A DNA stretch of 46,462 bases from Nitrosovibrio sp. Nv4. Its GTDB lineage: Bacteria > Pseudomonadota > Gammaproteobacteria > Burkholderiales > Nitrosomonadaceae. The stretch covers positions 1-46,462 of the forward strand of contig CAMDAX010000002.1 of assembly GCA_945888885.1 (NCBI GenBank), written 5' to 3'. Position numbers and translations under genes: made by a program. Numbering within the stretch: position 1 is the stretch's first letter; each line of letters starts with the position of its first letter. Positions 1 through 20,741 of the stretch are shown one piece after another. A model generated the notes under the pieces. That model was not told where the DNA came from, ran no database searches, and saw only the letters and a program-made list of their open reading frames with translations.

Positions 1-11
1 GGAAATTATTT

Positions 12-2588
12 ATGAAAGTATCGAATATCCACGCACTGCGCGGCCCCAATTTATGGAGCCAGCACACGGCTATAGAAGCTATCGTTTCCTGCAGCGTTGC
101 CGAGTACCCCATCGACAAACTGCCGAGATTCATCACCCGGTTACGTGAGCACTTCCCGGAAGCCGCCTTGCTCCAGCCAGCCAGGCATTATGAAACCATG
201 ACCATGGCTCATATCCTCGAATTCGCTGCACTCGGCCTGCAAATGCGTGCTGGATGCCCTGTCAGCTTCAGCCACACCGTACAAACGTTGGAAACCGGCA
301 CCTATCGAGTCGTTGTTGAATACAGCGAAGAAGCGGTTGGTCGGCTCGCTTTTGAGCTCTCACAAACTTTGTGCCATTGTCTAATTGACGATACTCCTTT
401 TGATCTGGCCGATGCGCTACACCGTCTGCGCGAACTTGATGAGGACGTGCGCCTTGGACCAAGCACTGGTGCCATCGTCCACGCTGCTGTAGCACGTGGC
501 ATTCCTTTCCGCCGCTTGACTGAAGGTAGTATGGTGCAGTTTGGGTGGGGCAGCCGGCAGCGCCGCATCCAAGCCAGCGAAACCGATCTGACCAGCGCCG
601 TCGCCGAATCCATTGCGCAGGATAAGGAATTGACCAAGATGCTGCTGCATGCTGCTGGCATTCCGGTTCCGTTGGGCCGTCCAGTATTAAATGCTGCAGA
701 TGCCTGGGCGGCCGCCTGTGAAATTGGTGGACCGGTCGTCATAAAACCCCAGGATGGCAACCAGGGTAAGGGAGTCGCGGTAAATCTCGTAAACCGTGAG
801 CAAGTAGAGGCTGCCTACGCAGTAGCGGTTGAAATCAGCGGCGAAGTTCTGGTTGAGCGTTACATCTCCGGTCATGACTACCGCATGCTGGTAATTGGCA
901 GCAAGCTGGTTGCTGCTGCGCGGCGAGAACCGCCTCAAGTAGTCGGTGATGGCGTACACAGTATTCGGCAACTGGTAGAACAGGTCAATAGTGATCCGCG
1001 CCGTGGCAAAGGTCACGTTGCCTCGCTGACTAAAATAAATTTTGATGAAATTACTCTCGCTCACCTTGCAATCCAGAATCTTACGACCGAATCCATCCCG
1101 GTCAAAGGTACACGCATCATCCTGCGCAATAACGCCAATCTTTCCACTGGTGGTACGGCTGTCGATGTGACAGATGAAGTTCATCCCGAGCTTGCTGAAC
1201 GCGTGGTGGCCGCTGCGCAAATGATTGGTCTCGATATCTGCGGAGTTGACGTTATCTGCAACACTGTGCGGGATCCGCTGGAACAACAAAGCGGCGGCAT
1301 CATTGAGGTAAATGCTGCACCAGGTCTGCGCATGCACCTGCAGCCTTCATCCGGCAAAGAACGTGCGGTTGGCGAGGCAGTCATCGCCAATATGTTTGCC
1401 GACGGTGAGGATGGGCGCATTCCTGTTGTTGCAGTAACCGGCACGAACGGCAAGACCACCACCGTTCGTCTGATTGCCAATATCCTCGGCTGTCAAGGCT
1501 TGCGTGTCGGCATGACAAATACTGACGGCGTCTACATTGAAGAGCAACGCATCGACACCGGCGATTGCAGCGGCCCGAAGAGTGCGAGAAATGTCCTCCT
1601 CCATCCCGATGTCGATGCCGCTGTATTTGAGACGGCACGCGGTGGCATGCTGCGCGAAGGACTGGGTTTCGACCTCTGCCATGTTGCAGTAGTCACCAAC
1701 ATCGGCATGGGCGATCACCTCGGTCTCGCACACATCAATACGGCAGAGGATCTGGCCGTTGTCAAACGTGTCATCGTACAAAACATCGTACCCGATACTG
1801 GTGTTGCCGTGCTCAACGCCGCTGATCCGTTGGTAGCCAGCATGGCTGATAGCTGCCCTGGCTCAGTTACTTTCTTTGCCCTCGACCGCAACCATCCGAT
1901 AATAGCCAGGCACCATGCACAACGTAAACGCGTCATCTATCTTGATGGCGACTCGATAGCTGCCGTGGGGGCAACTGGAGTTGAATACCGGATCCCGCTG
2001 AGCGAAATCCCGATCACGCAGAATGGCACCATAGATTTCCAGATTGAGAATGCCATGGCAGCTATCGGAGCTGGCTGGGCGCTTGGTCTTGATTGGGCGG
2101 TCATTTGTGCGGGTTTGACCAGCTTTGTCAGTGATGTGCAAACTGCGCCAGGCCGTTTTAATCTTTTCAGCCATCGTGGCGCTACACTGATCGCTGACTA
2201 CGGCCACAATGCGGATGCGATTCGGGCACTTGTATGTGCCATCGATAATATGCCAGCCAAACGGCGCTCGGTAGTCATCAGTGGTGCCGGTGATAGACGC
2301 GACGAAGACATCCGTCAGCAGACCAAGATCCTTGGTGACGCTTTCGATGAAGTCGTGCTTTATCAGGATCAGTGCCAGCGTGGCCGTGCCGATGGAGAGG
2401 TGCTTGGCCTACTGCGGCAGGGATTGGAGAATGCTAAACGCACCCGTGTGGTCAAGGAAATACGGGGGGAGTTTGTCGCCATTGATGCTGCTTTCGCCAA
2501 CCTCAAAGCTGGCGAGCTATGCCTTATTCTCATCGACCAGGTCGAGGAAGCACTCAGACATATCAGCAGACGGGTAATCGCAGGCTAA
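12..2588 (+). CDS. cphA: Cyanophycin synthetase (ATP-grasp + Mur-ligase-like domains)
   Basis: 858-aa ORF; ATP-grasp region (PVVIKPQDGNQGKGVAVN), Mur-ligase P-loop VTGTNGKTTTVRL, N-terminal CphA-type sequence (RGPNLWS). Confidence 0.93.
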   Translation: MKVSNIHALRGPNLWSQHTAIEAIVSCSVAEYPIDKLPRFITRLREHFPEAALLQPARHYETMTMAHILEFAALGLQMRAGCPVSFSHTVQTLETGTYRVVVEYSEEAVGRLAFELSQTLCHCLIDDTPFDLADALHRLRELDEDVRLGPSTGAIVHAAVARGIPFRRLTEGSMVQFGWGSRQRRIQASETDLTSAVAESIAQDKELTKMLLHAAGIPVPLGRPVLNAADAWAAACEIGGPVVIKPQDGNQGKGVAVNLVNREQVEAAYAVAVEISGEVLVERYISGHDYRMLVIGSKLVAAARREPPQVVGDGVHSIRQLVEQVNSDPRRGKGHVASLTKINFDEITLAHLAIQNLTTESIPVKGTRIILRNNANLSTGGTAVDVTDEVHPELAERVVAAAQMIGLDICGVDVICNTVRDPLEQQSGGIIEVNAAPGLRMHLQPSSGKERAVGEAVIANMFADGEDGRIPVVAVTGTNGKTTTVRLIANILGCQGLRVGMTNTDGVYIEEQRIDTGDCSGPKSARNVLLHPDVDAAVFETARGGMLREGLGFDLCHVAVVTNIGMGDHLGLAHINTAEDLAVVKRVIVQNIVPDTGVAVLNAADPLVASMADSCPGSVTFFALDRNHPIIARHHAQRKRVIYLDGDSIAAVGATGVEYRIPLSEIPITQNGTIDFQIENAMAAIGAGWALGLDWAVICAGLTSFVSDVQTAPGRFNLFSHRGATLIADYGHNADAIRALVCAIDNMPAKRRSVVISGAGDRRDEDIRQQTKILGDAFDEVVLYQDQCQRGRADGEVLGLLRQGLENAKRTRVVKEIRGEFVAIDAAFANLKAGELCLILIDQVEEALRHISRRVIAG

Positions 2589-2753
2589 TTTCAATTCCAT
2601 TTCATTAGCGGCACTTTGTTGATATCCTCACTCGTACCTTGCCGTACTATTCACCCCGAAGAAAATCTCCTTGGGGGGCGTACTGTCTGCGGCGCTCATT
2701 CGTCATCGCCTTATTTTACTTTCGAACTGGAATTGGAATAAGATCTCGACAAC

Positions 2754-3860
2754 ATGCGTACTGATGTTTCGAGAATGCCCTTGGTGGATGCACTTAAGGC
2801 CACTGCCTGTCTGTTGATTGTGTCGCATCATCTATCAATCTACGGCCCCATGTCGGATTTGGCATACCCACTAATTCCTGGCCTGATCGATTGGCTTCGT
2901 GAGTACGGAAGAATCGCAGTGCAGGTTTTTTTTGTTGTAGCAGGTTTTCTTTTGGCAGGAAAACTTGCCCCGCACGGGGTGCCACTCGTCACCGACCCGA
3001 TTCAGGCTATCAAACAACGCTATGTTCGATTGGTCATCCCGTATCTCGCCGCCTTGACCCTAGCAATCGGATGTGCGGCACTGGCAAGGTACTGGATGAC
3101 TCACGATTCCATCCCCGCCGCACCTAACCTCCCCCAACTGCTCGCTCATATATTTCTGCTGCAAGATCTGCTTGATCAGGATGCCCTGTCAGCAGGCGTC
3201 TGGTACGTGGCTATCGATTTTCAGTTATTCACCCTTGCGGTGACCATACTCTGGCTATCCAGAAAAATTGAATGTCGTTATCCACACCTGAAATTGACTG
3301 GCCTGGTTTTAATTGCAGGCTTAACCATGGTCTCGCTATTTACGTTCAACCGGAATGATTTCTGGGACGAAACTGCTTTCTACTTTTTTGGCTCATATGG
3401 CCTTGGGATTCTGGTCTATTGGGCTTCGAACCGGCAACAACATATTGTCTGGCTCGCATTACTAGGCACGCTGGTAGTAGCGGCCTTGCTGGTAGACTTT
3501 CGTTCTCGGATAGCGGTTGCAGGTATCGTAATGCTGGCGCTGGGATTCGCCAGGCAATATGGAGTCTTGGGAAGTTGGCCCGTGCCAAATTTCCTGACCT
3601 ATCTTGGGCGCATTTCTTATTCCATATTCCTTGTGCACTTTCCGTTGTGTCTGGTTGTCAACGCGACTTTCTTCCGCTTCTTCCCACATCAACCGGTCAT
3701 CAGCATATTCGGGCTGATCCTGGCCTTAGGTATTAGCATTCTTGGTGGCGCCTTACTCTTCAAATGGATCGAAAGCCGTCCACTTACGAATAAGATGCAG
3801 CTGTTGCTACCGGCAGGGTTTATGACAAGTGGCTTACTCGTAGCGTTGGGAAGTGGTTAA
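2754..3860 (+). CDS. Acyltransferase 3 family membrane protein (OafA/YrhL-like)
   Basis: 368 aa, many hydrophobic helices, N-terminal LKATACLLIVSHH and VFFVVAGFLLAGK motifs of acyltransferase 3 proteins. Confidence 0.8.
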   Translation: MRTDVSRMPLVDALKATACLLIVSHHLSIYGPMSDLAYPLIPGLIDWLREYGRIAVQVFFVVAGFLLAGKLAPHGVPLVTDPIQAIKQRYVRLVIPYLAALTLAIGCAALARYWMTHDSIPAAPNLPQLLAHIFLLQDLLDQDALSAGVWYVAIDFQLFTLAVTILWLSRKIECRYPHLKLTGLVLIAGLTMVSLFTFNRNDFWDETAFYFFGSYGLGILVYWASNRQQHIVWLALLGTLVVAALLVDFRSRIAVAGIVMLALGFARQYGVLGSWPVPNFLTYLGRISYSIFLVHFPLCLVVNATFFRFFPHQPVISIFGLILALGISILGGALLFKWIESRPLTNKMQLLLPAGFMTSGLLVALGSG

Positions 3861-3861
3861 T

Positions 3862-3909
3862 GGGCACCTCTAAAATTCAAAATTCCAAACAAGATTTTTA
3901 GAGGTGCCC
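3862..3909. repeat. Perfect 14-bp inverted repeat (GGGCACCTCTAAAA / TTTTAGAGGTGCCC) between convergent genes; bidirectional terminator and/or IS-end/MITE remnant
   Basis: Left arm 3862-3875 and right arm 3896-3909 are exact reverse complements with a 20-nt loop; lies between convergent acyltransferase and htpG. Confidence 0.75.
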
Positions 3910-3936
3910 CAATGAATCATCCTCCTGTGCGAACTT

Positions 3937-5859
3937 CTATTTCCCGTTCAAAGTAGTCAACAGCAACAGCTCGTTGAGTCTTTTGACGAATCCAGCCGGA
4001 TCATCAAGCTGACCACCTTCAGCCAGCAGTGCCTGGTCAAACAGGATACGACTCCAGTCTGCAAATCGTGTCTCCTCGTATTTCAAGCGCTGCACCATCG
4101 GATGGTGCGGGTTAATTTCGAGGATGGGCCTGGCCTGGCTCACCTTCTGTCCGGCTGACTTGAGCATGCGTTCCAGATTGCCGCCCATATCGTAGCTATC
4201 TGCCACCAGACAGGCCGGGGATTCAGTCAAGCGCAAGGTGATACGCACATCCTTCACCTGCTCACCCAGAACATTCTTTATTTTTTCGATGAGCTCTTTG
4301 TATTCGTCTGCTTCCTTTTCCTGCTCTTTCTTCTCCGCCTCATCTTCCAGTTTACCCAGATCAAGGCTGCCTTTGGCTATCGATTGGAGTGACTTGCCCT
4401 CAAACTCTCTCAGGTTCGACACCAGCCATTCGTCCACACGCTCGGATAGCAGCAATACTTCGATACCTTTCTTGCGAAAAATCTCCAGATGCGGGCTACT
4501 TCTAGCAGCCTTGAGGCTGTCGGCAGTAGCATAGTAAATTTTCTCCTGCCCTTCTTTCATACGCCCGATATAATCGCTCAATGACACCGCTTGCTCGTCG
4601 TCATCGGCATGGGTAGAAACAAAACGCAGCAGCTTGGCAATACGTTCGCGGTTGGCGTGGTCTTCCCCCACACCCTCTTTCAGAACCTGGCCAAATTCCT
4701 TCCAGAAGGTTTTGAATTTTTCCCTGTTGCTATCTAGTTCACTCTGAGCAAGGTCTTCGATCAACCCCAACACCTTCTTTACTGCACCGGCGCGGATTGC
4801 TTCGATATCTTTCGATTCCTGCAAAATTTCGCGTGAAACATTCAGCGGCAAATCGTTGGAATCGATTACCCCGCGCACGAAACGCAAATAATTCGGTAGC
4901 AACTGCTCCGCATCGTCCATGATGAACACCCGCCGTACATACAACTTGATGCCGTGGCGGTGCTCGCGATCAAACATGTCAAACGGTGCGTGCGATGGAA
5001 TATAGAGCAGTTGGGTGTATTCCTGCTTGCCTTCCACCTTGGCGTGCACATAGGCCAGCGATGGCTCAAAATCATGTGCCACATGTTTGTAGAATTCCTC
5101 GTACTGCTCCGGAGTGATCTCGCTCTTGGGACGCGCCCACAATGCACTTGCCTGATTAACGGTTTCATCTTCATCAGTGATGGTATTTTCGTTCTTCTCC
5201 TTGGACCACTCCTCCTTTTTCATCACAATCGGCAAAGTAATATGGTCGGAATACTTGCGAATGATGGTACGCAGCCGCCAGCCATCGAGCAAATCCTCCT
5301 CTCCTTCGCGCAGATGTAGAATGACTTCGGTACCGCGATCTGTTTTCTCCACTGTCTCCAGCGTATAATCACCCTCACCCGCAGATTCCCAGCGCACACC
5401 ATGTTCTGCGGTCAAACCGGCGCGGCGCGTAATAAGCGTCACTTTGTCAGCGACGATGAATACTGAGTAAAAGCCGACACCGAACTGGCCGATCAAATTT
5501 GCATCTTTGGCCTGATCGCCGGTTAGTGAGCTGAAGAATTCGCGCGTACCGGATTTGGCGATGGTACCGATATGCTCAATTACTTCCTGCCGCGACATGC
5601 CGATGCCATTGTCAGCGATAGTCAGGGTATGGGCAGCAGCATCATAGCTGACACGGATTCCAAGATCGGGATCGGTTTCGTATAAAGCACTATCAGCCAG
5701 TCCCTCGAAGCGCAGCTTATCGGCTGCGTCCGATGCGTTGGAGATCAATTCGCGCAGAAAAATTTCCTTGTTGCTATACAAGGAATGAATCATCAACTTG
5801 AGCAGTTGTTTGACTTCGGTCTGAAAACTCAGGTGTTCTTTGGTGGCAGCGGCTTGCAT
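3937..5859 (-). CDS. htpG: Molecular chaperone HtpG (Hsp90)
   Basis: Hsp90 signatures ([41 protein letters not shown]). The listed ORF extends to 5937, but ATG at 5859 ([20 protein letters not shown]) has an AAGGAG-type RBS. Confidence 0.96.
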
Positions 5860-5955
5860 GGTTATCTCCTTGGAATAATGCAGTAGGATTATGAGGGCAA
5901 ATTGAAATATTTCAAGCTGCCTATATATAGAATTCACATTTAAGTTCTACCAATC

Positions 5956-7059
5956 ATGAAAATTTTCAATCGTTTTGCAATTATTCTTATGCTCTATTGT
6001 GCCTTGCCCGCCACTGCACAAAATCTCGCCCTGCCTCTGGATAAAATCAAATTGCCAGCGGGGTTTATGATCAGTCTGTGGGCGGAAGCACCCAATGCAC
6101 GTGGTCTGACACTGGGAACGAATGGCACAGTATTCGCCGGATCCATGACTGAGGGCAAGGTTTATGCTATTACCGAAAAAGATGGCGTGCGTCAGGTCAG
6201 AGTCATCGCCAGGGGACTCCATCTACCAGTAGGTGTAGCCTTTCGTGATAAAGCGCTGTATGTCTCTGCGGTTAACCGCATCCTGCGCTTTGATGACATT
6301 GAGGAAAAACTTGATCAGCCCGGAAAACCCGTGGTGGTAACTGAAATTTTTCCAAAAGAAAAACAGCAACATGGCGGAAGATCCATCGCCTTTGGCCCAG
6401 ATGGCCTGCTATATGTGTCAGTGGGCGCACCATGCAATAGCTGCGAGGCCGATCCGATGAGCTTTGCGCTGATTGCACGGATTCAACCCGATGGCAGCGG
6501 CTACAAAGTTTATGCACAAGGCGCAAGAAATTCAGCCGGTTTTGACTGGCATCCTAAAACGAAGGAATTGTGGTTTACCGATACCGGACACGACTGGCTG
6601 GGCGACAACACTCCACCCGATGAACTCAATCTCGCACCCGGAAAAGGCATGCATTTTGGCTTTCCCTATTGTTATGCCGACGATGTTCTCGACCCCAAAT
6701 TTGGAGCCAAGCGTAACTGCGGCAAGCTCACTGCCCCAGCAGCCAAATTTGATCCACATGCTGCGCCACTGGGAGTACGCTTCTACACCGGTAAAATGTT
6801 CCCGGAGGAATACCACAACCAGATCTTCGTGGCCGAGCATGGCTCGTGGAATCGCCGTGAAAAAAACGGTTACCAGCTCAAGCTGATACGGATAAAAAAC
6901 AACAAAGTAGTAAAGCAGGAAGTGTTTGCCAAAGGCTGGTTGCAGGCAGAAGACGCATGGGGAAAGCCGGTCGATATGCTGGTGATGCCTGACGGTGCAC
7001 TGCTGGTTTCAGATGATTATGCCGGTGCAATTTATCGCATCAGCTATAAAAAACCTTAA
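5956..7059 (+). CDS. PQQ-dependent sugar dehydrogenase (L-sorbosone dehydrogenase-like), secreted
   Basis: 367 aa with signal peptide; beta-propeller motifs (HGGRSIAFGPDGLLYVSVGAPCN, RNSAGFDWHPKTKELWFTDTGHDWLGDNTPPDELN, EHGSWNR). Confidence 0.85.
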   Translation: MKIFNRFAIILMLYCALPATAQNLALPLDKIKLPAGFMISLWAEAPNARGLTLGTNGTVFAGSMTEGKVYAITEKDGVRQVRVIARGLHLPVGVAFRDKALYVSAVNRILRFDDIEEKLDQPGKPVVVTEIFPKEKQQHGGRSIAFGPDGLLYVSVGAPCNSCEADPMSFALIARIQPDGSGYKVYAQGARNSAGFDWHPKTKELWFTDTGHDWLGDNTPPDELNLAPGKGMHFGFPYCYADDVLDPKFGAKRNCGKLTAPAAKFDPHAAPLGVRFYTGKMFPEEYHNQIFVAEHGSWNRREKNGYQLKLIRIKNNKVVKQEVFAKGWLQAEDAWGKPVDMLVMPDGALLVSDDYAGAIYRISYKKP

Positions 7060-7073
7060 GGAAGCAACGATTT

Positions 7074-7300
7074 ACTCAGTCCGTTCGGGCTGAGTATGAT
7101 ATTCGTCCGCAGGCCGAAAGGCGTTGGCAAGAAACAGGGCAGCCCCAGCCCCGCTCGTCCTGAGCCTGTCGAAGGATGTTTCCGTGCTGTTCGGTCCAAT
7201 TTTGGATGGCGTTTCGCAGCGCTACAAAATCGTAACTTATTGATTTTATGATAATGAAAAAGCTGTTTCTTGAGAGCCCTTCGATAAACTCAGGAGAGCC
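7074..7300. repeat. Cluster of dispersed CCGTTCG/CTGAGCCTGTCGAAGG-type repeat fragments, including an inverted pair
   Basis: 7074-7095 ACTCAGTCC-GTTC-GGGCTGAGT hairpin; 7153-7176 CTCGTCCTGAGCCTGTCGAAGGAT; 7276-7299 GCCCTTCGATAAACTCAGGAGAGC (imperfect reverse complement of the former). Confidence 0.55.
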
Positions 7301-7456
7301 AAAGCGGATGGCTGATCTTTCTCAAAATAGCCTCCTATGCCCCGTTTCGGCGAGCTTTTATTTATATTTATTGAAATACCATGTTTGAGTTATGCTGGTG
7401 ACAAAACTTCGCGCAATAAGTAACACTCTGAACGTTAACCTCCTATCCACGGCATC

Positions 7457-7996
7457 ATGCATCACAACATTATCATGACCCATCAACGTTGGATCGCTGC
7501 TGCCTGCATGTACTGCCTACTTGGTGCCGGCACTGCAACTGCTGCGCCTATCGATGTTGCGGGGGAAGCCTATAACAAAAGTGCCCACGTACAAGCTATC
7601 AAACTATTCAGGCCGTTGGCTGCCCAAGGAAATGCAGATGCGCAAGCCATGCTGGGCATGATGTATCTCAAGGGCGAAGGCACAACCCGGGATTATCCGG
7701 AAGCCATAAAGTGGCTCCTCCTGTCTGCTGCACAAGGCAATGCAGGTGCGCGAAATAACCTTGGGGCGATGCATTTCAATGGCGATGGTGTGAACCGGAA
7801 TTATCCTGAAGCCCTGAAGCTGTTTCGCTTGTCTGCAGAGCAGGGAGATAAATATGGGCAAGTCAGCCTTGCCGCGATGTATCTCAATGGCTACGGCGTA
7901 ACCAAGGATGTCCAGGAAGCCGTGAAGTGGTACCGCCTGGCTGCGGCACAGGGGGATGTAACTGCCGAGAAAGCCTTGAAACGGTTAAATCAGTAA
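7457..7996 (+). CDS. Sel1-like repeat (SLR/TPR) protein with signal peptide
   Basis: Tandem AAQGNADAQAMLGMMYLKGEGTTRDYPEAIKWL-type repeats; hydrophobic N-terminus. The true start may be the later Met at 7475. Confidence 0.88.
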   Translation: MHHNIIMTHQRWIAAACMYCLLGAGTATAAPIDVAGEAYNKSAHVQAIKLFRPLAAQGNADAQAMLGMMYLKGEGTTRDYPEAIKWLLLSAAQGNAGARNNLGAMHFNGDGVNRNYPEALKLFRLSAEQGDKYGQVSLAAMYLNGYGVTKDVQEAVKWYRLAAAQGDVTAEKALKRLNQ

Positions 7997-8053
7997 TGAA
8001 GAAGGGAGCAGGTTGCTGCACCTGAGTTGAGCTCTAATCAATGGATAGAAAAG

Positions 8054-8293
8054 TCATGATGCGCATTCCGCCTTAACTTGGTCGCGTGGCCGGGAGCTCC
8101 TCGAGAAAGATGCTTTTTCACAGTAATTCACCAGCTCATCCTTATTTTGATACATGGTATTCGTAGGGTCAGCTGGCGATAAATCCATACACTTGGAGAA
8201 TAATTCTTTCCGCAAACATTGATCTGTTATGGAAGAGGGTTCGCACCCAGCCAGAAGTGCAAAGATCAGAATAGTTCCGAACATCTTCATCAT
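8054..8293 (-). CDS. Small putative lipoprotein
   Basis: 79 aa, N-terminal MMKMFGTILIFALLAGC lipobox, Cys-rich remainder. Confidence 0.55.
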   Translation of the reverse strand: MMKMFGTILIFALLAGCEPSSITDQCLRKELFSKCMDLSPADPTNTMYQNKDELVNYCEKASFSRSSRPRDQVKAECAS

Positions 8294-8508
8294 GTGTCTC
8301 CAGTGGCTTCGTGGTCATTCAGGGTACACTATCTGTGTAAATCAATGACTCCTATCTGGAAATACAAACTTCCACGATCGACACTGAACGGATGCTCAAT
8401 GTCTGAATTAGCCGGCGGGCTACTGAAGCTTTGTCACGCTAGTCCGGGTGAATGTAAAGTTAGGCAGGTTAATTCGACCCTAGCCTTGAGATTTCCCCGA
8501 ACACTAGC

Positions 8509-8613
8509 GAATTTACCGTACAAAAATGGGAAGTGGATCAGAAAAGACCACGTGGCATGGCGCTTAGGCTATTGCGTGTGGTCGAAAAGCACGGACTTGA
8601 AGTGCTCGTGTAG
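8509..8613 (+). pseudogene. Remnant of the C-terminal part of an XRE/HigA-like HTH antitoxin
   Basis: Short frame EFTVQKWEVDQKRPRGMALRLLRVVEKHGLEVLV* resembles the end of HTH antitoxins (V..LQNWEQGRR.P.GPA..LL.V..K.P..V); no intact N-terminal HTH in frame. Confidence 0.4.
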
Positions 8614-8656
8614 CCATTTCTGTTTACCCGTCATATCCTTGTTAAATTTTGTTAGA

Positions 8657-8671
8657 CTGTTAAAGTAACAG
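8657..8671. promoter_or_regulatory. Palindrome CTGTTA-AAG-TAACAG, possible operator of the downstream TA operon
   Basis: Perfect 6-bp arms, 18 nt upstream of the antitoxin ATG, next to an AT-rich promoter-like stretch. Confidence 0.45.
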
Positions 8672-8688
8672 CTTCAGGAGATCGCATC

Positions 8689-8901
8689 ATGTTAACGACC
8701 ATAGAAGTAACGATTGATAAAACAGGACATTTGCATTGCGTTGAATCCGGACAAACCATCAAGCCCGGACGCGCATTGCTGACTTGGCTGGAACCTGATA
8801 CCGCGCACGAACCCGCCTTGATGGCCGAGGCTGCACTGGCGCAAGACTGGCTCAATCCTGAGGAGGATGCAGCGTGGGCGCATTTGCAGTCGGGCAAGTA
8901 G
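8689..8901 (+). CDS. Putative type II antitoxin of a PemK/MazF-type pair
   Basis: 70 aa, acidic C-terminus (AQDWLNPEEDAAWAHLQSGK), overlaps the toxin start by 28 nt. Confidence 0.7.
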   Translation: MLTTIEVTIDKTGHLHCVESGQTIKPGRALLTWLEPDTAHEPALMAEAALAQDWLNPEEDAAWAHLQSGK

Positions 8902-9209
8902 TCGTACTGCCTTTCCCATTTTCAGACCTCAGCCGAAAAAAACTGCGCCCAGCTTTGTTGTTGGCAGATGCAGGCCGGGGGGATTGGATCGCCTGCCAGA
9001 TAACCAGCAACCCCTATGCAGATGCCCGCGCAATCACCCTGGCAGAAAGCGAGTTTGCCGAGGGTGGCTTACAGCGCGTGAGTTATCTTCGCCCCGGCAA
9101 ATTATTCACCTGCCACGAGTCTCTTCCTGTTGATACCGCTGGACTACTCAACGAGGCTGCATTGCAACAAGCTCGAACAGCCGTTATTCAGATGATTCAA
9201 GGCTGTTAG
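8874..9209 (+). CDS. PemK/MazF-like type II toxin (mRNA interferase family)
   Basis: 111 aa; GQVVVLPFPFSDLSRKKLRPALLLADAGRGDWIACQITSNP matches the PemK/MazF N-terminal pattern. Confidence 0.8.
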   Translation: MGAFAVGQVVVLPFPFSDLSRKKLRPALLLADAGRGDWIACQITSNPYADARAITLAESEFAEGGLQRVSYLRPGKLFTCHESLPVDTAGLLNEAALQQARTAVIQMIQGC

Positions 9210-9290
9210 GTATGAACTTAATCCGAACCTGGCACTTTTAATTGTAAAATGAACGATATGGCACTGTACAAGAGACTTAATCAAGAATCA

Positions 9291-9333
9291 ATCGAGTCTG
9301 ACCCCATTGAACCGCCATCGAGTCTGACCCCAT
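9291..9333. repeat. Two direct copies of ATCGAGTCTGACCCCAT
   Basis: Identical 17-mers at 9291-9307 and 9317-9333. Confidence 0.8.
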
Positions 9334-9342
9334 CGATCCTTA

Positions 9343-9807
9343 ATGGAGGGTAGTGTGCCTGAGCAAACCTACAAGCGCATTGATCTCGCAAAGGAGCAAC
9401 TAGAAATAGCCCTTGAGATGTTCCTTCTGCGTCGTAGCTTCATTTCAGCGTTAACCCTTGCCGGTGCCGCTGAAGAGATTTTTGGGCAAGCTCTGATCCA
9501 ATGCGGTGAGAAGACAACATTACAGAATGAATATCCACTAATCGAACCGGTTGAAAATCTTTTCCGGAAAGAACCGTACAAGTGGAGTGAATTCACTGAA
9601 GGAAAGAATCGAGTCCGAAACGCCGCCAAACACATGAAAGATGCGTCGCAGACAATGGTTACTGCCGATATGGAGGATGAAGCCCTTTGGATGATCGTTC
9701 GGACTCTCGACAACCACACACGGCTTGGATTCAAACCAACACCACAGATGCACGAATTTGAAGATTGGTTCAATAAAAATGTAGTAGGGCTGAAACATGA
9801 GGTATAA
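9343..9807 (+). CDS. HEPN-like domain protein (hypothetical)
   Basis: 154 aa, helical, contains RNAAKH (R-x4-H, the HEPN catalytic motif pattern). Start could be the GTG/ATG near 9343-9355. Confidence 0.5.
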   Translation: MEGSVPEQTYKRIDLAKEQLEIALEMFLLRRSFISALTLAGAAEEIFGQALIQCGEKTTLQNEYPLIEPVENLFRKEPYKWSEFTEGKNRVRNAAKHMKDASQTMVTADMEDEALWMIVRTLDNHTRLGFKPTPQMHEFEDWFNKNVVGLKHEV

Positions 9808-9891
9808 CATTGCATTTGAGCCGAATGTTATGAGTCGACATACCTTTTCCTGCTGTGCTCATGCCCTGCGCCGCTCAACGCCGCGTTAGAC
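9802..9891 (+). other. Integron attC-like recombination site
   Basis: GTATAAC at 9802-9808 contains the TAA stop of the upstream ORF; 3' end GCTCAACGCCGC-GTTAGAC (9873-9891) fits the GTTRRRY core; TTGAGC (9816-9821) pairs with GCTCAA (9873-9878). Confidence 0.45.
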
Positions 9892-9926
9892 TCCCCATTC
9901 ACCACCTTACCTCGCAGGGGCCACTC

Positions 9927-10502
9927 GTGAGAATCGTTCTTACTTCCTTCGTACTCCTGAGTGCCCTGGCAGGTTGCGCCTCAATCAAACACACCTCAAA
10001 TGCTCAACAGCCAGTCGGCCAGACAGTACTTGCCGGTGTCGGCGATGTCGTCTTGCGTGTTGACAGGCAACGTGACCTAGAGAACTTTTTCGGGAAGGCT
10101 ACCATATCCGGACGCAAGACAAACGAAGGCTACTCTGAGCTCCGCTTTGCAGGTGTAGAAAGAACCGGTGAAGTTGTGCTGTACCGAAAGGATATGCGCA
10201 TTATTACCAACGAAACAACAATGAGCAGATCACCACTATCCACGATATTTGGTAGCTCCACTACATCAATGAGCGGTGCCTACACGAACTATGGAGGCAC
10301 AGGAACTATCAATGCAAATGCCCAGACGAACTATTCATCCACCATCATCGCGCCAACTAACGACTTTCACGTAGTTGTTCCTGCTGAAACCATCCCTGTG
10401 CGGCTCGCGCCTGGCGAGACAAGATTTCCGATGGAAGGCTACATCATCGAAATCGTCAAAGTAACACCCAATTCTCTTGAATACCGAGTTACAAAGCAAT
10501 GA
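9927..10502 (+). CDS. Putative lipoprotein, hypothetical
   Basis: In-frame GTG at 9927 gives MRIVLTSFVLLSALAGCASIKH with a lipobox; the listed ORF from 9855 adds an unlikely N-terminus overlapping the attC-like site. Confidence 0.6.
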   Translation: MRIVLTSFVLLSALAGCASIKHTSNAQQPVGQTVLAGVGDVVLRVDRQRDLENFFGKATISGRKTNEGYSELRFAGVERTGEVVLYRKDMRIITNETTMSRSPLSTIFGSSTTSMSGAYTNYGGTGTINANAQTNYSSTIIAPTNDFHVVVPAETIPVRLAPGETRFPMEGYIIEIVKVTPNSLEYRVTKQ

Positions 10503-10658
10503 AGACCAAAAACAAAAGAGCAGAAATAAAAGGGGCCGGGGTCAAATTAACCTTATTGACACCCACAAAACTCACCCAAAACTGAGGGAGTCAAGGCGCT
10601 TGCTGAGACTCTAGCAGTGTGATCTTCAAAAGATGCAACTGTGCCGGGTGCTGCTGCG

Positions 10659-12104
10659 CTATATGGATTGTTGAATCGCGTAAGCGCACAGTGCCATCAA
10701 TGCCTGGGGAAAGAGGCCGAATGCGAGTACCGCCAGGCCATTTGCGCTTATCAGCAGCTTGACGTCGCCCGTTGGCAGAATGGGTGCATCAGTTTCGGGT
10801 TCGTCGAAATACATCAATTTGACGATACGCAGATAATAGAATGCACCGACCAGCGAGAATAACACTGCCACCACCGCCAGCCATATGTAACCCGCATTCA
10901 GTACCGCTTGCAACACCGACAGCTTCGCATAAAAACCTACCACCGGTGGAACACCGGCCAGCGAGAACATCAACAACAAAGTAATGAATGCATACCAGGG
11001 ATTACGCCGGTTGAGTCCTTTGAAGTCACTGAGTTTTTCGGCTTCAAATCCTTCCCGTGACAACAGCATGATCATGCCGAAGGTGCCCAGGGTCATCAAT
11101 ACATAAACCACCATGTAGAACATGGATGAGCTGTAGCCGTTTTCATCCCCGCTGATAATCCCCAGCAGCATGAAGCCCATGTGTGAGATGGTGGAATACG
11201 CCAGCATGCGCTTGATATTAGTCTGGGCAATGGCGGCGAGATTGCCGATGATCATGGACATCACCGCCAGAATGATGAGCATTCCCTGCCAGTCTGCCGC
11301 CATCGCCCCCATACCTTCCACCAGCAAGCGCATGACAAAGCCAAATGCTGCCAGCTTGGGTGCCGAGCCGATAAACAGTACGACTGCGGTGGGCGCACCC
11401 TGGTAGACATCCGGTGCCCACATGTGAAACGGCGCTGCGCTCAACTTGAAGCTGATGCCGGCAACGATGAACACCAGTCCCACCACCAGCACCGTATAAT
11501 CAGCCGCGCCACTCTGAATTACCGCAGTGACCTGTGCGACATGGAGGGCGCCAGTGGCACCGTAAACCATGGACATGCCATACAGCAGGAAACCGGAAGC
11601 CAGTGCCCCCAGTATGAAATATTTTATTGCTGCCTCGGTAGCATCCACTGAGTCGCGGCGCAATGCGACCATGGCATAGAGCGAGAGTGACAAAAGTTCC
11701 AGTCCCAAGTAAAGGGTCAGGAAATGGCTGGCGGAAATCATCACCATCATGCCCAGGGTAGCGAACAACGTCAGGCTGAAATACTCGCCGTTGAACATGC
11801 CGCGCACAGCGATATAGCCACGCGAGTACACCAGCACCATGGATACCGTGACATAGGTTAGCAGCTTCAGTATGTCGGCCATGGCATCGTCCACGAACAT
11901 GCCGGAGAAAGTATAAGTTACACCGGGAGCAGAGGTGGCAAAGGTAATCAGCGCGCAACCAAGCAGCGCAACCTGCGCCAGCAGATAAGCGATGTAACGT
12001 CTTTTTTCACCCGCCGCAAGATCGGCCAGCAACACCACGCACACCATTACCAGAAGAAATATCTCCGGATAGGCGGGGGCGAGATCAGGCGGCAAAAAAT
12101 TCAT
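10659..12104 (-). CDS. nuoN: NADH-quinone oxidoreductase subunit N
   Basis: 481-aa antiporter-like subunit at the end of the nuo operon; [17 protein letters not shown]. Confidence 0.95.
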
Positions 12105-18329: not shown

Positions 18330-20741
18330 TCACAATCTCTCTACCATAATTTCACCAAACATCGCGCCCAAGGTTGCAGTCAGCGGATGGGCCGAAGCCA
18401 CACGTACACAGTTGGCAGGTAGTTTGTCGTCACGAGCTGCCGGCAACAGCGCTTCACCGTCACCTTGCTTCACTTTAATCATGTCCCCTGCTTGCACGCC
18501 GAGTCTGTCCAGTAATGCGCCCGGCATGGATGCCAGCGGCGCCATAGCATCATGCGTGCGCTGCAGCGATTCAGCACGGCGTACGATAGGATCCGCTTGA
18601 TATATTGGAACTTCACCAATACGCTGGAGTCCTTCGCTCACCTGTCCAATCTCACCAACGGCAAAGCTACCCAGCCTATTGCTCAGTTGAGTACTGACGT
18701 CGCTGCCAGCGAGAAAAATCTCCGCCCGCACTTGCTCTGGTGTCTCATAATCGAAACCATCAAGTTGCAGCAGATTGCCGAGTACCCGCAGTATCTTCCA
18801 CGCTGGGCGTGCATCGCCCAAGGGTGCCACGACTCCGTTAAAACTCTGTACACGACCTTCGGTGTTGATAAAAGTACCGGAAGTCTCGGTAAATGGTGCG
18901 ATTGGCAGCAGCACGTCAGCATAATCGACACTGGCGACATGCTTTTTATAGGCGCTCATCATCACTACCAGCTCCGCGGCTGCCAATGTTTTCATCGCCT
19001 GTTGCGGGTTGTAACTGTCGAACTCCGGTTCCAGATTCATCAATACGAAAGCGCGGCATGGTTCGGCAATTGGAATGGCGCTCATCCCCAGCATTTGCGA
19101 AGCGTTACTACCATTTGCTCCGACTTGACTGGAACCACTGATTCCCACAGCACCCGGCCCAGGTACTGCTCCGGCAAGATACGCACCAACACTGTTGGCG
19201 GCCTCTCCCAGTACACCGAAACTCGTTTCTGCAATTTGCGCGATATGTTGCGCCAGCATATGAATATCTGCATATTGCGGATGATGTTGCGCCAAATTGC
19301 CGAGGAAAATAGCAGCCGGCTTGTTGTCGATGAGGCTGGCGGCGATCGCGCGTGCGGTATCAGTCACGCTGATGCTGCTTACCGTATCCTTCAAGGTGGC
19401 AGGAATCTCTGTCGCTTTCAATTCGGCAGCAGCTTTCAGAACCTGTGCCAGCATTGCAGCCATCGCAGCGGGGGCAACGACAACTTGATTAGTTACCTTT
19501 GTGAGCAGATCATCGCTGACTGGGTTAATCAGATTTAAATGGGCGCCCTGCTTCACCGCCTGGCGTAGACGCTGCGCAATAAGAGGGTGATCCTTGCGCA
19601 GCGTGCTGCCGATGACCAGCGCCGATTTCAATTGCGAGATCTCGGCAATTTTCATCCCCAGCCAAGGTGAACCTTGTAGATGACTGTCGGCACGAAAATC
19701 GGACTGGCGCAGGCGATGATCGACATTTCCACTACCCAGGCCCCGTATCAGTTTCTGCAGCAGATAAAGCTCTTCCAAGGTGCTGTGCGGGGAAGCCAGC
19801 GCGCCAATACTCTGTGCCCCGTGTTGTTCCTGCGCCGTTTTTAGTCCGTTAGCAACGAACTCCAATGCGGTATGCCAGTCGCATTCCTGCCACTGGCCAT
19901 CACGCTTTATCATCGGTGTGGTTAAACGCTCCTCCGAATTAAGTCCTTCGTAGGAAAAACGATCCTTATCCGAGAGCCAGCATTCGTTGATCTCCTCATT
20001 CTCGCGCGGCAATACGCGCATTACGCGATTCAACTTTATTTGTACCACCAGATTGGAACCGAGACCGCAATGCGGGCTCACGGACTTCCGGCGCGACAAT
20101 TCCCAAATGCGGGCAGAATAGCGGAACGGTTTGCTGACTAATGCACCCACCGGACAGAGATCAATCATGTTGCCAGACAACTCCGAATCTACTGTACTGT
20201 CGACAAACGTCAGAATTTCAGCATGTTCACCGCGACCAGCTACGCCCAGTTCCATAACGCCGGCGATTTCCTGGCCGAAGCGTACGCAGCGAGTGCAGAG
20301 GATGCAACGAGTCATGTCGGTGGAAATCAGCGGCCCCAGATTCTTGTTTACTACCACACGCTTGGGTTCCGTATAACGTGATGCGCTTGCGCCGTAACCA
20401 ACCGCCAAGTCTTGCAATTGGCATTCACCACCCTGGTCGCAAATGGGACAATCCAGTGGATGATTGATGAGTAGAAATTCCATCTGGCCTTTTTGTGACG
20501 CTACTGCCATTGCGGAATGGGTGGACACTTTCATGCCCTCCACCGCAGGGGTAGAACAGGCAGGCAAGGGCTTGGGTGCCTTCTCTACCTGTACCAGGCA
20601 CATACGACAGTTGGCCGCGATCGATAGCTTCTTGTGATAGCAGAAATACGGAATATAAATGCCTAATTGGGTGGCGCCGTCCATGACGGTGCCACCTGTG
20701 GGCACGGATACCTGTTTGCCATCGATCTCAATATTGGTCAT
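18330..20741 (-). CDS. nuoG: NADH-quinone oxidoreductase subunit G
   Basis: 803 aa; N-terminal 2Fe-2S/4Fe-4S ligands ([48 protein letters not shown]). Confidence 0.96.

Follow-up and report, generated by a model that had tools for sequence, protein, structure and literature searches.

The question raised by this locus is whether a short segment behind a HEPN-like gene is a true integron recombination site and, if it is, how cassette DNA came to lie there. The locus belongs to a stretch of 46,462 nucleotides from the genome of Nitrosovibrio sp. Nv4, which was analyzed as a whole and is called the window below. The earlier note, a reading of the raw letters, had described a 90-nt segment running from GTATAAC, which holds the TAA stop codon of the preceding open reading frame (ORF), to GTTAGAC, and had seen in it the attC site of a stranded gene cassette. 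This description was confirmed base for base at positions 9802-9891 on the plus strand, and the caveats attached to it were also correct: there is one mismatch to the RYYYAAC consensus, no intI is present within the window, and no attC follows the gene that begins at 9927.

The attC site behind the HEPN-like gene

The site opens with the R'' box GTATAAC (9802-9808, plus strand), within which the TAA stop of the ORF at 9343-9807 occupies positions 9805-9807, and continues through a 6-nt spacer (9809-9814) into the L'' arm TTTGAGCCG (9815-9823, plus strand), with T9817 and A9824 as candidate extrahelical bases. The L' arm CCGCTCAA (9871-9878, plus strand) is followed by a further 6-nt spacer (9879-9884) and by the R' box GTTAGAC (9885-9891, plus strand), in which the crossover G9885|T9886 is intact. 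The pairing of TTGAGC with GCTCAA that had been noticed near the ends was found as TTTGAGC at 9815-9821 facing GCTCAA at 9873-9878, and in all, six of seven R pairs and seven of eight L pairs are complementary. The R' spacing is 6, the commoner value being 7. An attC site is classically defined by an R'' box RYYYAAC, an R' box GTTRRRY, complementary R and L arms, and a length of 57-141 bp (PMC3053210); despite its one R'' mismatch, the segment has the R and L arms and the length of such a site.

We scored the segment with an arm-based matrix trained on cassette arrays adjoining intI in related genomes, with the window excluded from training. The final training round comprised 106 sites, nearly all of which lay, within each locus, on a single strand, and that strand was the one predicted from the orientation of intI; this agreement supports the detector. 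The segment scored 45.1, whereas 200 simulated counterparts of the window (order-2 Markov) reached 24.9 at most, and the array sites used for training had a median score of 48.9 with a 10th percentile of 34.7. The nuoN loci of 29 related genomes, 128.7 kb in total, gave no matrix match of 17 or more. A covariance model, which had been proposed as a check on the original reading, also gave a positive result: with a purpose-built model derived from 45 array sites, for which the R and L pairing was supplied by hand and which is not IntegronFinder's own, 9802-9891 was matched at 32.8 bits (E 5.4e-6), and a second segment, 8394-8465 on the minus strand, at 28.2 bits (E 7e-5), these E-values being rough because the calibration was short. 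The next-best match in the window reached 9.9 bits, and a search of the window with Rfam at the gathering threshold returned a tRNA only.

A chance or otherwise unrelated palindromic repeat that resembles the attC consensus would accord with the imperfect R'' box and with the weak folding of the bottom strand of 9802-9891 (z -1.46). The paired state of its L arms has a probability of 1.5e-4, which ranks 37th among 52 attC of the genus and makes this a minor-state fold; the attC at L052, which adjoins a complete intI in G008, a genome of the same genus, is equally low by the same folding measure. However, a chance repeat is difficult to reconcile with the distance between the matrix score and its null maximum, or with the genes on both sides, whose cassette status was established independently (see below). 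At the level of the matrix null and of the flanking genes, the chance explanation is refuted, and we regard it as extremely improbable. We conclude that 9802-9891 is a genuine integron attC on the plus strand.

Cassette genes on either side of the site

The gene upstream of the attC (ORF 9343-9807, plus strand) probably starts at GTG 9355, the likelier start, which has GGAGGG at 9345-9350. It was assigned as a HEPN-like cassette gene from the ORF itself, from homologues in cassette arrays, from a family alignment and from weak fold matches. Genome searches yielded homologues in 16 other genomes, and at about 10 of the 16 loci an attC adjoins the ORF, either directly after it (L010, L013, L132, L135, L136 and L139) or directly before it (L131, L133, L134, L136 and L137). 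In gene cassettes the attC closely follows the gene, and the stop codon frequently falls within R'' or beside it, as it does here; in the closest homologue, that of L131 (49% identity), it likewise lies inside the R'' box (GCATATAAC), after which the attC is interrupted. No attC was found at five of the 16 homologue loci, at the HEPN-family ORFs on four contigs from the species collection, or adjoining the family gene in three plasmid records (relatives in Burkholderia, Paraburkholderia and Vibrio), indicating that the family is not exclusively cassette-borne.

The family alignment contains a conserved LAGAAEE block and the motif R/K-N-x-x-K-H, present in the window ORF as R-N-A-A-K-H. The HEPN superfamily is characterized by a four-helix bundle and the motif Rx4-6H, for which RNAAKH is the candidate in this ORF; some family members have K in place of R or do not have the motif. 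No significant assignment was obtained for the ORF in Pfam, NCBIfam or PADLOC, and a PDB profile search with the family returned nothing significant. In an AlphaFold2 model built from four sequences (mean pLDDT 68), HEPN structures were among the top Foldseek matches, at E 0.2-0.6 only. The modeled protein resembles the HEPN proteins AbiV (9bj6/9bj7, an antiphage RNase) and AF0298 (2hsb) in being an all-helical bundle with R-N-x-x-K-H, but differs from these in that the matches stay at those E-values with a model of that pLDDT, the motif is not family-wide and there is no Pfam match. Its likeliest function, about which our confidence is evenly divided, would be that of an RNase acting in defence or as a toxin, with the gene travelling as cassette cargo.

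Downstream of the attC, the segment 9886-10502 (plus strand), which starts with TTAGAC, is the head of a second cassette whose own attC is missing. It contains a lipoprotein ORF (9927-10502, plus strand) with a GTG start 36 nt past the GTTAGAC core, a placement that the earlier note had likened to that of a following cassette. This reading was borne out by the genome G172, where a homologue of the lipoprotein gene (L127) lies between two attC: one at 1310-1381 before the ORF, with a core-to-ORF spacing similar to that in the window, and an attC-like repeat, read by eye, at ~1962-2044 after it. Since the homologue follows an attC in L127, the simplest reading of G9885|TTAGAC is as the junction of two cassettes. 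The lipoprotein ORF was absent from the 110 relatives searched, it had no significant assignment in Pfam, NCBIfam or PADLOC, and the covariance model detected no attC 3' of it within the window.

The gap beside nuoN and the borders of the cassettes

Both cassettes lie in a variable island (7059-10640) between two convergent core genes, a dehydrogenase-like gene (5956-7059) and nuoN (10659-12104), with a respiratory-chain gene cluster adjoining. A comparison of these flanks across the genus showed that the gap between the two genes, 3.6 kb in the window, does not exceed a few tens of bases in the related genomes G002 and G005, which show the locus free of cassettes, and holds other content in G001, G003, G004, G007 and G008. 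The G003 sequence is common to the window over 7286-9244 and then divergent up to 10524, with homology resuming at 10524/10525, and in G008 the gap contains two attC in minus orientation with different cassette genes. The variable content of the window, G003 and G008 suggests that the gap probably received cassette DNA more than once. None of the relatives searched showed an empty counterpart of the window locus with its breakpoint exactly at G|TT. We also observed that the order of blocks differs in G003:C14, where the counterparts of window 1-9244 and window 10525-39460 have changed sides relative to each other, and that a 3' nuoN fragment is present near G003:C14:5753-6029 besides the full gene, owing either to rearrangement or to an assembly effect.

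The second attC-like site, 8394-8465 on the minus strand, had been overlooked at the first reading. It lies 1.3 kb from 9802-9891 on the opposite strand, its core has decayed to ATTGAGC, and it has homologues at L121:8426-8493 (24.0 bits) and L115:7892-7959 (21.1 bits). The crossover G of the R' box is replaced by A (ATT for GTT) in seven of the 52 attC matches of the genus, namely this site, the two homologues just given, L172:3022-3088, L172:3578-3647, L152:1501-1563 and L185:246-309. A recurrent G-to-A change at the crossover base should disable the site; CpG decay and selection are possible causes.

Antisense to this second site is a two-gene module (8689-8901 and 8874-9209, together 8689-9209, plus strand), which has no match in Pfam, NCBIfam or PADLOC. 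The same module occurs in G003:C14 and also in G008:C45, where attC sites are close by. The layout of the genes suggests a toxin-antitoxin-like pair, which is probably cassette cargo. In G008:C45 (~19490-20620, reverse strand), the unit corresponding to window 8377-9243 is found between direct repeats of ~115 nt, and in three genomes its homology breaks off at one and the same base (9243), which would fit a mobile unit.

The 5' G|TTRRRY border of the HEPN cassette was not found, there being no GTT between 9212 and 9342. GTTAGGT at 9205 was considered as a left border and ruled out, since the sequence of G003 and G008 continues past it unchanged. The absence of the left G|TT border indicates a truncated remnant rather than an intact cassette. 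The suggestion in the earlier note that 9343-9807 is a relic or mobile cassette is thus supported, given the occurrence of the family in arrays, with the refinement that what is left of the cassette is truncated. As clean excision of the HEPN cassette needs a directly oriented upstream attC and none is present, the cassette can be described as "stranded"; further cassettes may still integrate at 9802-9891.

The probable left truncation point is formed by two copies of a GGGGTCAGACTCGATTGA-type motif (9284-9331, minus strand; copies at 9288-9305 and 9314-9331) directly 5' of the ribosome-binding site of the HEPN gene, and a related motif, AAAGGGGCCGGGGTCAAATTAA (10529-10550, plus strand), at the right-hand limit of the unique segment is the probable truncation point of the second cassette. 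Rearrangement at these GGGTC-type motifs is, we infer, what deprived the HEPN cassette of its left border and the lipoprotein cassette of its attC. It was also noted that motifs of the types GGGGTCAGACTC(G/C)ATTGA and AAAGGGGCCAGGGTCGAATTAA border cassette units and toxin-antitoxin-like units, the GGGGTCAGACTC type being rare in each genome; in G003 such edge motifs are found at C14:6035-6052 and, in L182, near 2950-3010 and 3280-3310.

The same motifs permit an alternative in which a piece of an array was brought in by illegitimate or repeat-mediated recombination at GGGTC-type sequences and then decayed, with no one-by-one insertion by an integrase. Three observations are consistent with entry of this kind: such motifs lie at either outer edge of the unique segment 9244-10524, three genomes share one end point of the toxin-antitoxin-like unit, and the HEPN cassette has no G|TT on its left. 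However, the motif is rare, with four matches in the Nv4 genome even when up to two mismatches are allowed, its mobility is putative, and integrase-type entry is known in other bacteria (Loot et al. 2024, as cited in PMC12444791). Repeat-mediated entry is therefore a tenable though somewhat doubtful account of the locus.

The integron of the genus and known systems

The earlier note had proposed searching the rest of the genome for an integrase and for other attC sites, and both were found: an intI fragment on contig C67 and attC on five more contigs. The fragment, which is cut by the contig end, encodes the C-terminal 78 aa of an integron integrase (133.8 bits to TIGR02249), ending THVLNKGGRGVVSPLDAL, and at the DNA level it shares 97% identity with the complete intI of G003, alongside which there are three attC in the expected orientation. 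With the covariance model, at least nine attC were detected on six contigs of the Nv4 genome (G000), and 10-15, as lower bounds, over many contigs in each of G001, G003, G004, G007 and G008; no match was obtained among the part of the candidates scored in G002, G005 and G006. The counts are lower bounds because only part of the candidates was scored per genome and the G000 assembly is incomplete (81% complete, 196 contigs).

We consider it very probable that the HEPN attC cassette and the head of the lipoprotein cassette are the remnant of a short integron array outside its integron. Most likely, the integron integrase of the lineage itself would have delivered the cassettes into the nuoN gap, where an older, oppositely oriented cassette site (8394-8465) would already have been present. 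Entry would have occurred by recombination of attC with a secondary, attG-like site or of attC with attC, the choice of att sites being our supposition, and later rearrangement at GGGTC-type motifs would account for the two losses, that of the left border from the HEPN cassette and that of the attC from its neighbor.

It could also be proposed that the nuoN gap is an active satellite docking site, at which a distant integrase still exchanges cassettes in trans. The intact G9885|TT, the different cassettes of G008 in the same gap and the ppa locus, where one left border is combined with different cassettes in G000, G003 and G008, are compatible with continued exchange. On the other hand, the core of the nearby attC at 8394-8465 has decayed, the hairpin of 9802-9891 folds weakly, and the attC of G008 and of the window are not demonstrably at one point, such that we regard active docking as unlikely. 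The same low probability attaches to a wider proposal, in which fixed gaps, that between nuoN and the dehydrogenase-like gene and that 3' of ppa, would be integrase-less satellite docking sites at which a distant integron integrase continues to exchange cassettes between species, with G-to-A decay of the crossover base retiring individual sites.

With regard to the ppa locus itself, the left border 3' of the gene is common to three genomes (...GTGTCTACTT(A/C/T)ACG|TT) and is followed by different cassettes in G000:C74 (L172:2470-3660), G003:C45 (L182:2370-3400) and G008:C26 (L183:2960-3670). The site is integrase-less with apparent cassette turnover, and attC matches near ppa are also present in G004:C18 and G001:C1.

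The remnant of a short array that we favor for the nuoN gap has several consequences. A true single attC can be recognized from the raw letters of a sequence; the integron cassette pool gains a HEPN-like gene family that is possibly related to defence; and an environmental lineage is added whose integron cassettes are scattered along the chromosome, with attC matches in six of the nine genomes of its genus and none in the remaining three. Lineages with scattered cassettes are natural material for studying how cassettes enter and exit outside integrons.

A complete integron consists of intI, attI and an attC array, whereas the window lacks intI and the fragment of the gene lies on C67. Integrase-less clusters of two or more attC are known as CALIN and single attC as SALIN (PMC9024848, PMC12690207), and cases with a single attC can be true according to the description of IntegronFinder 2.0 (PMC9024848). 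The window shares with these an attC and cassette genes with no integrase nearby and an integrase elsewhere in the genome. However, its two attC, 1.3 kb apart on opposite strands, are nearer to two single sites than to a cluster, and both recognizable cassettes are truncated on one side. The locus is a dispersed, integrase-distant cassette remnant of the CALIN/SALIN kind. The insertion of cassettes at attG sites outside integrons, as the papers PMC12444791 and PMC12690207 describe it in citing Loot et al. (2024, Nat Microbiol), is similar in that cassettes are dispersed one or two at a time over many places on the chromosome and the genus has intI, but differs in that no G|TT left junction or empty site was found at the window locus. 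In Xanthomonas, CALINs occupy conserved loci in several species (PMC12444791), and these likewise are integrase-less attC clusters that recur at one chromosomal locus across species, although here the locus is the gap between nuoN and the dehydrogenase-like gene (and that at ppa) and the lineage is a different one. The phenomenon is thus already known, and the window locus is a well-preserved example of it.
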